This document shows positions 4,945 through 23,995 of a DNA stretch of 27,357 nt, one piece after another. A program made the position numbers and the translations under genes. Source of the DNA: a virus; the IMG/VR virus record IMGVR_UViG_3300030329_004464, positions 1 through 27,357 of that record; one strand, given 5' to 3'. The stretch's first letter is position 1; the number at the start of each line of letters is the position of its first letter. The notes under the pieces are model-generated. The model worked only from the letters and a program-made list of their open reading frames with translations. It was not told where the DNA came from and did not search any database.

Positions 4945-5130
4945 TTAGTACCACTTAACTTTTGATTTCTTATCCTTTAGCATTCTTCTTTGTCCACCAA
5001 CTGCATTCTCTAGAGGAATTTTTTCTGACACAGTATAATCTACTCCGCCTTTAGCATATCCATCTTTGTTAGTGAATTTAGAAAAATCTACGCCTTTGTA
5101 GAAAGGCTCTTTGTCTTTTTTATTATCCAT
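4945..5130 (-). CDS. Small DGYxKGG-motif protein (61 aa)
   Basis: A charged 61-residue protein with one copy of the motif shared with its neighbour, FTNKDGYAKGGV (residues 19-30), and a basic end (RMLKDKKSKVKWY). It overlaps the previous gene by 8 nt and ends 3 nt before the holin-like gene. The function is unknown. The shared motif and small size suggest that it and the 80-aa neighbour are related by duplication of the motif or share a binding partner. Confidence 0.65.
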   Translation of the reverse strand: MDNKKDKEPFYKGVDFSKFTNKDGYAKGGVDYTVSEKIPLENAVGGQRRMLKDKKSKVKWY

Positions 5131-5365
5131 TTTTTACTGGTACTCCTCCCTTTAAATATCCATCTTCATTTAAAAAAATAGATTGATCAGGTCTTTTTGT
5201 ATTTAAAGCTGATCCCATTCGACCACCATGTGTTTGAACACCAACTCCTGGTGCACTTGTTTTAACTTCTTTCATAGTAGTATTTCTAGGAGCTGCATTT
5301 TTTACATGCAAACCACCTTTTAAATAACCATCTTTATTTAAATATTTTCCAAATGCGTTTTTCAT
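5123..5365 (-). CDS. Small protein with two DGYLKGG motifs (80 aa)
   Basis: The motif appears near both ends: YLNKDGYLKGGL (residues 8-19) and FLNEDGYLKGGV (near the C terminus), separated by a Pro/Gly/Thr-rich linker. The open frame extends upstream to 5437, but that part lies inside the previous gene. The ATG at 5365 is one base after that gene's TAA and gives a clean N terminus (MKNAFGKY), so I chose it. Function is unknown. With the adjacent 61-aa protein it gives three copies of the motif in about 420 bp. Confidence 0.65.
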   Translation of the reverse strand: MKNAFGKYLNKDGYLKGGLHVKNAAPRNTTMKEVKTSAPGVGVQTHGGRMGSALNTKRPDQSIFLNEDGYLKGGVPVKNG

Positions 5366-19623: not shown

Positions 19624-19778
19624 TTCCATCAGGTTCAGGCCCGAAAGGGCCTGGCCAATTTAGAATGATTCTAAGGTACAAGCTCCAAGCAACAAGCAGC
19701 AAGCAAGAATTGACAAGCAAGCAAGAATTGACAAGCAAGCAAGAACATGTTAGTAATAGGATAATAAAGGAGAATTAA
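19608..19778 (+). CDS. Small protein with six-residue tandem repeat tail (56 aa)
   Basis: Reads MEFRLIPSGSGPKGPGQFRM, then ILRYKLQATSS, followed by a repeat tail KQELTSKQELTSKQE and a short end. The tail is encoded by 2.5 copies of an 18-bp unit (19701-19745), exactly in frame, and the GPKGP part by the 7-bp hairpin at 19636-19653. It lies between the 74-aa gene (16 nt overlap) and the 41-aa gene (2 nt gap), so the chain of small genes is unbroken. No function can be suggested. Confidence 0.5.
   Translation: MEFRLIPSGSGPKGPGQFRMILRYKLQATSSKQELTSKQELTSKQEHVSNRIIKEN
19636..19653 (+). other. GNRA-loop hairpin within a coding region
   Basis: CAGGCCC GAAA GGGCCTG forms a perfect 7-bp stem with a GAAA loop, 13 nt after the stop of the 74-aa gene. 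No U run follows. It could stabilise or weakly terminate the transcript, while also being coding for the 56-aa protein. Confidence 0.55.
19701..19745 (+). repeat. 18-bp tandem repeat with TTGACA boxes
   Basis: The unit AAGCAAGAATTGACAAGC occurs at 19701-19718 and 19719-19736, then partly at 19737-19745. Each full unit contains TTGACA. The second is 17 bp from TAGTAA (19751-19756) and could be a promoter for the genes from 19781. The sequence is related to the CAAGC repeats at 19320-19352 and 20540-20655. Confidence 0.75.
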
Positions 19779-20492: not shown

Positions 20493-20671
20493 TGACCTTC
20501 GTTATAAGACATCCTAAATACTACTCAGAGTTAAGAAAAATATACAAGCAAGCACGTACCAACGAGCAACGAGCGAGCAACGATCAACAAGCGAGCAAAG
20601 TCTCGAGCACCGTGGACCATGAAGCACGAGCAACGGACGAGCAAGCAAAACCTTCCCTTAAAAGATCCTGA
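20492..20671 (+). CDS. Small basic protein, GTG start, repeat tail (59 aa)
   Basis: The GTG shares its first base with the preceding TAG. The protein begins MTFVIRHPKYYSELRKIYKQ, which looks like a genuine strand-helix unit. The remaining residues (ARTNEQRASNDQQASKVSS and so on) are encoded by CAAGC/CGAGC repeats. The last 88 nt are antisense to the end of the nuclease gene on the other strand. It is the last plus-strand gene of this set. Existence of the N-terminal part is more certain than the exact end. Confidence 0.5.
   Translation: MTFVIRHPKYYSELRKIYKQARTNEQRASNDQQASKVSSTVDHEARATDEQAKPSLKRS
20540..20655. repeat. CAAGC/CGAGC short repeats between convergent genes
   Basis: The pentamer-like units CAAGC, CGAGC and GAGCAAC recur at least a dozen times here. 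The same family occurs at 19320-19352 and 19682-19745, and upstream of the promoter at about 19000-19015. GACCATGAAGCACGAGC-type pieces also resemble the sequence inside the exonuclease gene at about 23365-23397. It supplies the ends of both overlapping genes. Confidence 0.75.
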
Positions 20672-21489: not shown

Positions 21490-21493
21490 GCTT

Positions 21494-21538
21494 GGTCTTG
21501 TTTGGATGGACTCCACCACATGAAGTTCAAACAAGGCC
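21494..21538 (+). promoter_or_regulatory. Leader hairpin upstream of terS
   Basis: GGTCTTGTTTG (21494-21504) pairs with CAAACAAGGCC (21528-21538), 11 bp with one G-T pair and possible inner extension. The loop contains an ATG that opens a nine-codon reading frame (21520-21549) ending 5 nt before the TerS start. This resembles a leader-peptide or translational-control arrangement; function is inferred. Confidence 0.45.
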
Positions 21539-21554
21539 TTCAAAAATAACTATC

Positions 21555-22157
21555 ATGGGACTACCAAAAAAACTCACCGATATACAAAAAAGATTTTCTG
21601 AATTGTACGTATACAATGAAGGTAGAAAGACTCCTTATGAGTGTGCTGTTGAGGCAGGCTATGCTGAAGATTCAGCTAGAGTGAGAGCCAGTGAATTGAG
21701 AAACCCAAAAAGATATCCTCTTGTGGTAAAGTATATCGGAGAACTAAGAGAAGAAGTACAACAAAAATATGAAGTCACATTCGAAAAACATATTAAAGAA
21801 CTTGCAAGACTTAGAGAAGAAGCTCTTAAAAAAGGCAGCTTCTCATCAGCTGTTAACGCAGAAGTCTCTAGAGGAAAAGCTGCAGGTCTCTACATTGAAC
21901 AAAAAATTATTAAAACTGGTAAACTGGAAGATATGAGTGAACAGGAATTAGAACAACGAATGAAAGAAATTGTGGACCAATACAGTCCGATCTTAGACGC
22001 GAAACCTATTGAACAACTTAAGAAAGAAGTTAAAGCAAGTCCTGCAAAACTCCCAGAGCCACTCCCCGAAACTCAATATGAGGATAAAGACAACGTAGAA
22101 GAGAAAGATCAAGAAGAAAAAAGCGATGGTAATGTGAGCGAGAAAGTTACCCATTAA
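21555..22157 (+). CDS. terS: Terminase small subunit (TerS, 200 aa)
   Basis: The N-terminal part matches the Terminase_2 pattern of DNA-recognition subunits: LTDIQKRFSELYVYNEGRK, then AVEAGYAEDSARVRASELRN, which forms the helix-turn-helix. A long helix and an acidic, disordered C-terminal tail (EDKDNVEEKDQEEKSDGNVS) follow, as expected for contact with TerL. TerS picks the packaging site and stimulates TerL. I chose ATG 21555 because the upstream extension to 21492 lies in the leader hairpin and has an unlikely sequence. It is unusual in lying about 5 kb from TerL and on the opposite strand. Confidence 0.8.
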   Translation: MGLPKKLTDIQKRFSELYVYNEGRKTPYECAVEAGYAEDSARVRASELRNPKRYPLVVKYIGELREEVQQKYEVTFEKHIKELARLREEALKKGSFSSAVNAEVSRGKAAGLYIEQKIIKTGKLEDMSEQELEQRMKEIVDQYSPILDAKPIEQLKKEVKASPAKLPEPLPETQYEDKDNVEEKDQEEKSDGNVSEKVTH

Positions 22158-22474
22158 ATTTTAGTAATTTTTCTAATCCACTGTCGTGGTATCATAGTTC
22201 TATCCCCAAAACTAAAACTGCCATCATCTTCTTTATCGAAGGACGCAAATAACTTTACAGATTTTTTATCTTTAGAAAATAACCAACCTTCATTGATTGG
22301 TCTTGCGAGTCTCATCTTATCAAATTCTCTATCATTAGCCCAGCCAGAGTCACTCACACAGTCGATCCACTCCACCCTGACTTTAGGATAAGGTATGTCG
22401 GGAGTTCCAATTGAGGCGATAGCTTTTCTTCTTTTCCTAGGCATAAGGTCTTGTAACACAGTTGTCGACACCAT
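22154..22474 (-). CDS. Hypothetical protein (106 aa; start may be 22444)
   Basis: A soluble protein with mixed charge; the core is YPKVRVEWIDCVSDSGWAND, then RPINEGWLFSKDKKSVKLF and a closing helix IPRQWIRKITKI. The pattern VRVEWIDCVSDSGWAN is, from memory, shared with small phage and bacterial proteins of unknown role. The first ten codons include a copy of the GTGTCGAC repeat (22463-22472). The internal ATG at 22444 (MPRKRRKAIASIG) may be the real start, since neither start has a clear Shine-Dalgarno. Its stop overlaps the TerS stop by 4 nt from the opposite strand. Confidence 0.65.
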   Translation of the reverse strand: MVSTTVLQDLMPRKRRKAIASIGTPDIPYPKVRVEWIDCVSDSGWANDREFDKMRLARPINEGWLFSKDKKSVKLFASFDKEDDGSFSFGDRTMIPRQWIRKITKI

Positions 22475-22758
22475 AAAGGTAAAAAATTATTTTTTTAAAT
22501 CAGCGCTTATAAAAATATAAATAGGTGTCGAAAGGCACAAATTTCGATTACTTTCCTTATATACCAACGATAGTAGCTTCGACAGGGGGGGTGTCGCAAG
22601 GGTGTCGAAGGGGTGTCGAAGTGTCGACATATTATGGCAGAATTGTGGCCAAATTGCCTTAATTCAGTCATAATTGTACACTTTGGTCGCACTTTGGACC
22701 AAAAGTTCGACACCCTTCGACACCCTGCCGACACCCTGCCGACACCCTAGGTGTCGAC
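22463..22758. repeat. GTGTCGA repeat array with opposed arms
   Basis: Direct copies of GTGTCG[AC] occur at 22525, 22591, 22602, 22613, 22621 and 22751. Inverted copies (CGACAC) are at 22464, 22706, 22716, 22727 and 22738, with partial TTCGACA at 22578. Copies in each arm are spaced by 10 or 11 bp, one helical turn. The arms flank about 80 bp of AT-richer DNA with its own dyads (TTTGGTC/GACCAAA at 22682-22703; ATTATG/CATAAT at 22631-22674). There is no convincing gene here. This looks like a multi-site protein target: replication origin, partition site or operator array. Confidence 0.8.
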
Positions 22759-22760
22759 AT

Positions 22761-23429
22761 TTATGCTACTAATTTATTGTATTGATCGAGACGTGTCAGC
22801 CACTTGTGCTTCCAGTTTCTGAGTTCAGCGTCTTGTATTTTGAATTCTTGATAATATAAATCTGGAGTACATATCATTATAACTCCTTGTCTAATTTCAG
22901 ATCTATAAACATAATCATGAGCCATTGCATAAGCTGCAATCTGTAAAAAATAATCTTCAATCCAATCTTTACTTTTTGGACGATTTGCTTGCTTGAAGTC
23001 TACAATAGTTTCCATACTATTGTGTAAACAAACCAAGTCAGTAGACCCAGCATAAAGCCCAGGATAGTATAACGTAACTTCACTACCAAAGTATTCTTCC
23101 ACAGGCGTGAGCCCCACTTCAATAACTTTTTGGGCCATGGCTTTCGCCTCCTGTCCCAGCCCTGTAAGATCATCGTAGCCAACTCCTGTGATATGAGTTT
23201 CGAGGAATTTGTGCATGGCAGTTCCCCGCTTGCTAGATAAATTCTTGATTCGTTCTGCTGTTTCATTTCCAACCTTTTGTTTCCAGGCGGTTAAATAACT
23301 CTGATCTTTAGTTTTTGCAAGTATTGTCGTGACTGAAGGTAATTTTTCTCCTGCTACCTCATAGGTCCGTGAGCCGTGTTCCGTGGACCGTGAGCCCTGA
23401 ACATATTTATATTTTTCGTTTTGCTTCAC
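22761..23429 (-). CDS. PD-(D/E)XK exonuclease, Cas4/RecB-like (222 aa)
   Basis: The order of motifs fits RecB/Cas4-type nucleases: LPSVTTIL near residue 30, KRGTAMHKFLE (His73 of motif I), YAGSTDLV (Asp131), IVDFKQAN (Asp144 and Lys146 in the position of the D-x-K pair) and QIAAYAMA (motif with Gln163). It should degrade or trim DNA ends in recombination or replication. The GTG start lies inside the end of the 55-aa gene. Residues 11-23 (QGSRSTEHGSRTYE) are encoded by a short GTGAGC-type repeat, so repeat DNA appears to have entered the coding region. The last codons end just before the GTGTCGA array. Confidence 0.85.
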   Translation of the reverse strand: MKQNEKYKYVQGSRSTEHGSRTYEVAGEKLPSVTTILAKTKDQSYLTAWKQKVGNETAERIKNLSSKRGTAMHKFLETHITGVGYDDLTGLGQEAKAMAQKVIEVGLTPVEEYFGSEVTLYYPGLYAGSTDLVCLHNSMETIVDFKQANRPKSKDWIEDYFLQIAAYAMAHDYVYRSEIRQGVIMICTPDLYYQEFKIQDAELRNWKHKWLTRLDQYNKLVA

Positions 23430-23574
23430 TCAATTTCCTAGAAATAATATTCTCAACCAAGTCTCCGTACTTTCTATTTAGGCTGATTTGCGTTATAGAT
23501 TTAACAATATCCTGCTTCAATTTAGGTAATGATTTCAGGGATTTATTTAATTTTTCAGTTTTATTAGTTTCCAT
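23407..23574 (-). CDS. Small helical protein (55 aa)
   Basis: Reads METNKTEKLNKSLKSLPKLK, then QDIVKSITQISLNRKYGDLV and a basic end, ENIISRKLSEAKRKI. The start overlaps the endonuclease stop by 11 nt and its end overlaps the exonuclease start by 23 nt, which makes it a fully packed operon member. It is basic and helical with no known domain. The partnership with the exonuclease suggests a helper for recombination, but this is only a guess. Confidence 0.7.
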   Translation of the reverse strand: METNKTEKLNKSLKSLPKLKQDIVKSITQISLNRKYGDLVENIISRKLSEAKRKI

Positions 23575-23995
23575 GTAGATTCCAATTAAATTGTCTAGTT
23601 TTTCTATACAAATCTAAGTCTACTACATTTTCTCTATCTCTACCATCATAACCTTCATAATGGTCTATGACTTGTTCCACCTTATGTAACTTCGTTTTAA
23701 TATAAGGCCACACCGCCATGCAAATTTCTAAACAATCTCGATGGGCTACTCTCCATCGCCATTGTCTCTTCTTCCCTTCCTTAACTTTACGTTCTCCAAA
23801 GGATCCAACTTTAAAAGTATCGTGACACCACTTCACCGTATCCTTATCAGTCATAGCTATCTCGAGTCTAATGACCCAGACATTATGAACTGGTTTGCCA
23901 GGTCTCGTGTTACGTTTCTGTTTAGTTTTCTTATAATAAATAGAACCCTCACCATCGATGAGTCCTGCTAAATATGCAAAATCATTCTCTAACAT
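23564..23995 (-). CDS. LAGLIDADG-type homing endonuclease (143 aa)
   Basis: The motif YLAGLIDGEGSI (8-19) is a clear LAGLIDADG motif, with the catalytic acid at Asp14 or Glu16. It is present once, so the enzyme should act as a homodimer. Strand-rich parts follow (HNVWVIRLEIAMTDKDTVKW, then KRQWRWRVAHRDCLEICMAV). At 143 residues it has the length of a single-motif enzyme. It is free-standing, not in an intron or intein that I can see, so it is probably a mobile gene or a domesticated nuclease. The 5' end overlaps the upstream 63-aa gene by 14 nt. Confidence 0.85.
   Translation of the reverse strand: MLENDFAYLAGLIDGEGSIYYKKTKQKRNTRPGKPVHNVWVIRLEIAMTDKDTVKWCHDTFKVGSFGERKVKEGKKRQWRWRVAHRDCLEICMAVWPYIKTKLHKVEQVIDHYEGYDGRDRENVVDLDLYRKTRQFNWNLHGN

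Follow-up and report, generated by a model that had tools for sequence, protein, structure and literature searches.

We propose that a phased repeat array in the window (the whole 27,357-nt stretch analysed, positions 1 to 27,357 of IMG/VR virus record IMGVR_UViG_3300030329_004464) is probably the replication origin of this pelagiphage, with two arms of iterons that would be bound by a protein of the replication module, the candidate being a primase acting through its C-terminal winged helix. Comparison with relatives showed that the array goes with the replication module 5-14 kb away and not with the genes that adjoin it. The array lies between an exonuclease gene and a gene for a 106-aa protein and yet tracks these distant genes, which is the opposite of what linkage alone predicts, and this is our main evidence that it belongs to the replication module.

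The array contained 11 exact copies of the hexamer GTGTCG/CGACAC and one degenerate copy in non-coding DNA, and when the whole window was counted, all 11 copies were confined to 22465-22756. The heptamer GTGTCGA occurred 8 times in the window versus 0.94 expected, a count matched by none of 100 shuffles. Shuffling the array's own bases 2000 times gave a mean of 0.14 copies and a maximum of 3, compared with the 11 observed, and none of these shuffles produced a pair of words 10-11 bp apart, of which the array has 6. The original prediction of about a dozen copies of one word therefore stood, far beyond chance. The array and its neighbours are laid out as follows.

21492-22157, plus strand: small terminase subunit gene, TerS (phrog_51); does not track word class
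22154-22474, minus strand: 106-aa gene (phrog_25889), widespread in pelagiphages; does not track word class
22463-22758, no strand: whole array, proposed two-arm iteron origin (from sequence, shuffles and retention in relatives)
22465-22471, minus strand: outer left word, inverted (GTGTCGA on the minus strand), where the 106-aa gene begins
22472-22524, no strand: AT-rich (17% GC) stretch that may serve as a DNA unwinding element (from base composition)
22525-22531, plus strand: single direct word
22558-22576, plus strand: core TATATACCAACGATAGTAG, recurring in arrays of other words (from sequence and comparison with relatives)
22580-22585, minus strand: degenerate inverted word CGACAG (from sequence)
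22591-22626, plus strand: left arm of four GTGTCG words in direct orientation, at 22591, 22602, 22613 and 22621
22631-22704, no strand: inter-arm spacer, 38% GC, with AATT tracts about one turn apart (from sequence and GC count)
22708-22745, minus strand: right arm of four words in inverted orientation, at 22708, 22718, 22729 and 22740
22751-22757, plus strand: outer right word, direct
22761-23429, minus strand: PD-(D/E)XK exonuclease gene (phrog_298, E 1.8e-45); its tree departs from word class

Successive words were spaced by 59, 66, 11, 11, 8, 87, 10, 11, 11 and 11 bp, so that the predicted spacing of 10-11 bp held for most steps while one step in the left arm was 8 bp. The predicted polarity, direct on the left and inverted on the right, was likewise found in both arms and broken by the outermost copies. 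As for the AT-richer centre that had been described, the inter-arm spacer is indeed only 38% GC, but the AT-richest part of the array lies elsewhere, at 22472-22524, on the outer side of the left arm; aligned relatives show a comparable A/T run, in many cases together with a GCGC motif. The location beside an exonuclease gene was confirmed by the phrog_298 match. The slot between the flanking gene matches measured 289, 299, 311 and 319 bp in relatives, and since these lengths differ by non-multiples of three, the slot is not coding, a finding that disposes of one way in which the prediction might have failed. An Rfam search of the array matched no family. In these respects the array has what is expected of an iteron origin, namely regularly spaced short repeats of one word in a non-coding stretch and an adjoining AT-rich segment.

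The nearest named genomes were those of Pelagibacter phages HTVC027P, HTVC023P and 023Pt_psg01, of the HTVC023P-type group. Among the IMG/VR loci examined, 222 had both flanking genes on one strand, and some loci share a contig. Words of the GTGTCG class filled the slot in 109 typed loci of HTVC023P-type pelagiphage relatives, and many of these loci kept the 11-bp steps and the direct-left, inverted-right plan at exonuclease identities down to about 60%. Other relatives carried different repeated words in the same slot, including GGTATCGGA, ACCCCTCG, CCTTCGCA, AGTTCCAT, ATGTCCA and further words containing GACA or GTAC, and 023Pt_psg01 carried TGTGCCA words; the original suggestion to look among relatives for arrays of similar spacing but changed bases was thus answered by finding them. 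In HTVC023P, ACTAGGAAA words lie directly upstream of TerS and the exonuclease is located elsewhere, with the array and core still forming one cluster, and a distant 60-kb relative (contig G039, locus L620, about 5110-5310) has GTAGCA words in two opposed arms, again directly upstream of TerS. The gene order around the array differs among relatives while the array stays, and most of the long genomes examined have no dense cluster of their word besides this one. A core is common to several word types, reading TATATACCAACGATAGTAG in the window, TATATACCAACGATAATAG in a genome with TAGACA-type words, ATAAAATCAACACTTCTAG in several others and ATATAAATCAATACTTCTAG in HTVC023P. Compared with 300 shuffles, 12 of 18 arrays reached the lowest possible P (0.003) and three more had P of 0.03-0.04; in the other three, HTVC027P among them, the word count was matched by shuffles and did not exceed chance. 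No clear array was seen in the stretches read of the freshwater relative DSL-LC04.

We then retrieved long contigs spanning both the array and the replication genes and compared their proteins with the words. The primase slot in these contigs was occupied by one of two families, F19, which has the AEP-TOTE domain PF22548, or F81, a pRN1-like primase. All nine genomes with the pRN1-like primase, two of them near-identical, had GTGTCG, GTATCG or GGGTCG words, compared with 0 of 16 genomes with the AEP-TOTE primase. When primase family was used as the tree label and the changes needed were counted against shuffled labels, the PolA and helicase trees each needed 1 change (7.6 with shuffled labels) and the exonuclease tree 4 (7.6 with shuffled labels). 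The TerS and 106-aa trees did no better than shuffled labels, needing 5 changes versus 6.3 (83-89 of 500 shuffles were as low) and 5 versus 5.8, respectively. When PolA class was taken as a proxy at additional array loci, only ten of them were usable and none contradicted this pattern; extra contigs were also screened for further array-primase pairs, and most were without exonuclease and TerS.

A Mantel test of the similarity of repeated 5-mers against protein similarity in 21 genomes gave r of 0.71 for the primase C-terminus, 0.68 for the whole primase, 0.56 for helicase and 0.55 for PolA, followed by 0.46 for the exonuclease, 0.36 for TerS and 0.26 for the 106-aa protein. The partial correlation was 0.58 for primase given PolA and -0.36 for PolA given primase. 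These results indicated that the word co-varies with the primase/helicase/PolA module, as expected of an iteron origin and its initiator, and the archaeo-eukaryotic-type primase, through its predicted C-terminal winged-helix domain, is most likely the reader of the word. Within the AEP-TOTE group alone, which comprised few genomes, no gene stood out as reader, so the case for the primase rests mainly on the contrast between the two families; because a single branch in the PolA and helicase trees separates the two families, helicase or PolA might instead read the word.

Three neighbouring proteins were rejected as readers. TerS was ruled out by the trees and by near-identical proteins beside different words, such as the 96% identity between loci with GTTCCA and CGACAC words (L059 and L258). 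The 106-aa protein was ruled out by its trees and by identity across different words, reaching 97% between loci with ATGTCC and CCCTCG words (L026 and L089), where TerS is 94% identical. The exonuclease predicted the word slightly better than TerS, but its tree needed the 4 changes given above, and this slight edge may come from its lying on the replication side. Relatives of the 106-aa protein were found in 37 phage records, 36 of them pelagiphages, with very different genome sizes.

Structure predictions were made for primases of relatives, with a mean pLDDT of 86.2 for the F19 model and 78.7 for the F81 model. The F81 primase had no credible Pfam match and no PHROG match, and its profile matched none of the PDB sequences, but its predicted structure matched the Sulfolobus islandicus prim-pol (3m1m, Z 11.2, rmsd 3.3 A, 159 aligned). 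Both models end in a predicted winged helix. Residues 393-491 of F19 resembled TcpK on oriT DNA (5vfx_D, Z 8.1, rmsd 3.4 A, 87 aligned), and in F81, residues 367-467 resembled SCCmec Cch (5dgk_A, Z 7.2, rmsd 3.3 A, 91 aligned) and residues 366-462 resembled TcpK (Z 6.4, rmsd 3.3 A, 87 aligned). Winged-helix Z scores of 6-8 could reflect merely a common arrangement; the matches span the whole domain, and several of the matched proteins are replication or transfer-origin proteins. Both models also align in part to SaPIbov1 Rep. The origin-binding domain of P4 alpha was not among the structure matches listed, which is no argument against a relation. The iteron-type origin named in the original prediction thus gained support both from the tracking of the replication module by the word class and from the predicted origin-binding type of winged helix at the end of the module's primases.

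The window's record (28,624 bases) gave no AEP-TOTE match, and its contig ends before the replication genes; the window's own phage presumably carries a pRN1-like primase. A chimeric primase in contigs G004 and G005 (L284, 15849-17525, minus strand) joins an F19-type (AEP-TOTE) N-terminus to an F81-type C-terminus, the latter with E 4.7e-13 to the F81 C-terminal profile and 0.25 to the F19 one. The word of these contigs, ACCCCTCGCA, has TCGCA in common with the GTGTCGCA form of the other word class. There is a counter-case in G009, where the similar word CCTTCGCA is paired with an F19-type C-terminus, and the similar words CCTTCGCA and ACCCCTCG occur with C-terminal domains of different subfamilies. 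In five loci (L561, L562, L563, L565 and L601) one stop codon lies inside the matched F81-type primase stretch.

From these comparisons we infer an origin role for the array and the following course of events. The initiator of the replication module would bind the phased words side by side on one helix face in both opposed arms, and the neighbouring AT-rich segment would then open. A separate helicase would load, and the primase would begin primer synthesis. Lineages would swap the initiator and the matching word array as a pair, while the slot, the general layout and the core would be retained. Tentatively, and with somewhat less than even confidence, we extend this to HTVC023P-type pelagiphages as a whole, which may share a hitherto undescribed modular origin system with a conserved slot, two-arm plan and core, in which at least eight clearly different iteron words are exchanged, each read by the winged helix of the paired primase C-terminus, and in which the catalytic part of the primase, too, has been exchanged between two widely different families. 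GC skew showed no switch at the array and rose along nearly the whole genome with gene orientation, which made it uninformative.

The original prediction had also listed a packaging site, an operator and a partition site beside the iteron-type origin, and of these candidates the iteron-type origin is now favoured while packaging has lost its main support. If the array were a packaging start (pac or cos), TerS would bind the phased words and the large subunit would cut at the core; the TerS gene does lie a few hundred bp away, the array stays beside TerS in HTVC023P and contig G039, and the core between the word groups is conserved. However, TerS proteins 94-97% identical stand beside different words and the site does not co-vary with TerS, so the hint taken from its proximity was misleading, and contig ends were not enriched at the array, albeit in a weak test; we consider packaging unlikely. 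A similarly low probability attaches to an operator or enhancer through which a regulator encoded in the replication module would control transcription in the region of the 106-aa gene and TerS. There are regulators that bind many sites, and the array sits in an intergenic slot, but all 11 words in the window fall in a single cluster and thus leave no visible regulon on its contig, the surrounding gene order changes between relatives while the array remains, and among the gene families compared none co-varied better than primase.

Tracking of the replication module and the adjoining exonuclease gene would also suit another replication-linked site, be it a centromere, a site acting at forks or in termination, or a point where recombination-dependent replication enters. 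Partition sites, too, can have opposed arms, and lambda attP, with its phased arm-type repeats around a core, offers a further resemblance, namely to a phage attachment site with arm-type integrase sites. HTVC027P is reported to be obligately lytic and without lysogeny genes (PMC12753301), so partition is unlikely, and the exonuclease itself does not track the word; we regard these replication-linked alternatives together as improbable. The same lytic description argues against an attachment site, as does the lack of an annotated integrase in the listed features of HTVC027P (positions 1-50000), HTVC023P and 023Pt_psg01, and we regard this reading as very improbable.

The proposed iteron origin has parallels in known systems. 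Iteron origins, origin-initiator modules and their exchange are already known from SaPI, P4 and PLE (PMC7581432, PMC4234260, PMC8263062), while our literature search found no description of a pelagiphage replication origin. SaPI Rep and Cch2 have C-terminal origin-binding domains (PMC7581432), and in SaPI Rep origins and the putative SCCmec Cch2 origin, as proposed here, a replication protein binds short iterons through its C-terminal domain. The primase models of relatives have such a DNA-binding domain as a predicted C-terminal winged helix, which in F81 resembles that of SCCmec Cch. In SaPI, however, a helicase does the reading, and its gene is closely followed by the origin (PMC7581432), whereas the candidate reader in pelagiphages is a primase without a fused helicase, its gene 10-14 kb from the proposed origin.

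In satellite phage P4, the primase-bearing alpha protein binds origin repeats by a winged-helix domain before unwinding and priming (PMC4234260). The primase of alpha is of the bacterial (Toprim) type (PMC4234260) and shares a single polypeptide with the helicase (PMC7145576), whereas the pelagiphages have an archaeo-eukaryotic-type primase and encode the helicase separately. ORF904 of pRN1, like the F81 primase with its prim-pol-like core, ends in a winged helix, but the origin of pRN1 lacks iterons and consists of a large stem-loop (PMC4234260). The PLE satellites of Vibrio cholerae come close in another respect, as the origin and the origin-binding domain of the initiator RepA are exchanged jointly in modular fashion, perhaps under pressure from a nuclease directed at the origin (PMC8263062). 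They differ in having a RepA_N-type initiator (PMC7145576) and three semi-palindromic iterons of about 30 bp (PMC8263062), and they are satellites whereas the array belongs to a lytic tailed phage. What sets the present case apart is the lytic tailed phage in which it occurs, a likely reader that is a primase and not a helicase, the distance of this reader from its origin, and the many words found in one slot.

If this reading is true, pelagiphages would offer a natural series in which many origin words stand with their matching initiators on a common scaffold. The choice of DNA words by winged-helix initiators and the joint exchange of origins and initiators could then be tested directly. The series would also allow a test of what drives exchange, whether exclusion among co-infecting phages or nucleases that cut origins, the latter having been proposed for PLE/ICP1 (PMC8263062). 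With that proposal in mind, we note a LAGLIDADG/HNH homing-endonuclease-like gene near the array (window 23564-23995, minus strand). Elsewhere in the window, short tandem repeats with 18-bp units lie on both sides of a GP88-like gene, at 19698-19745 and 20560-20598.
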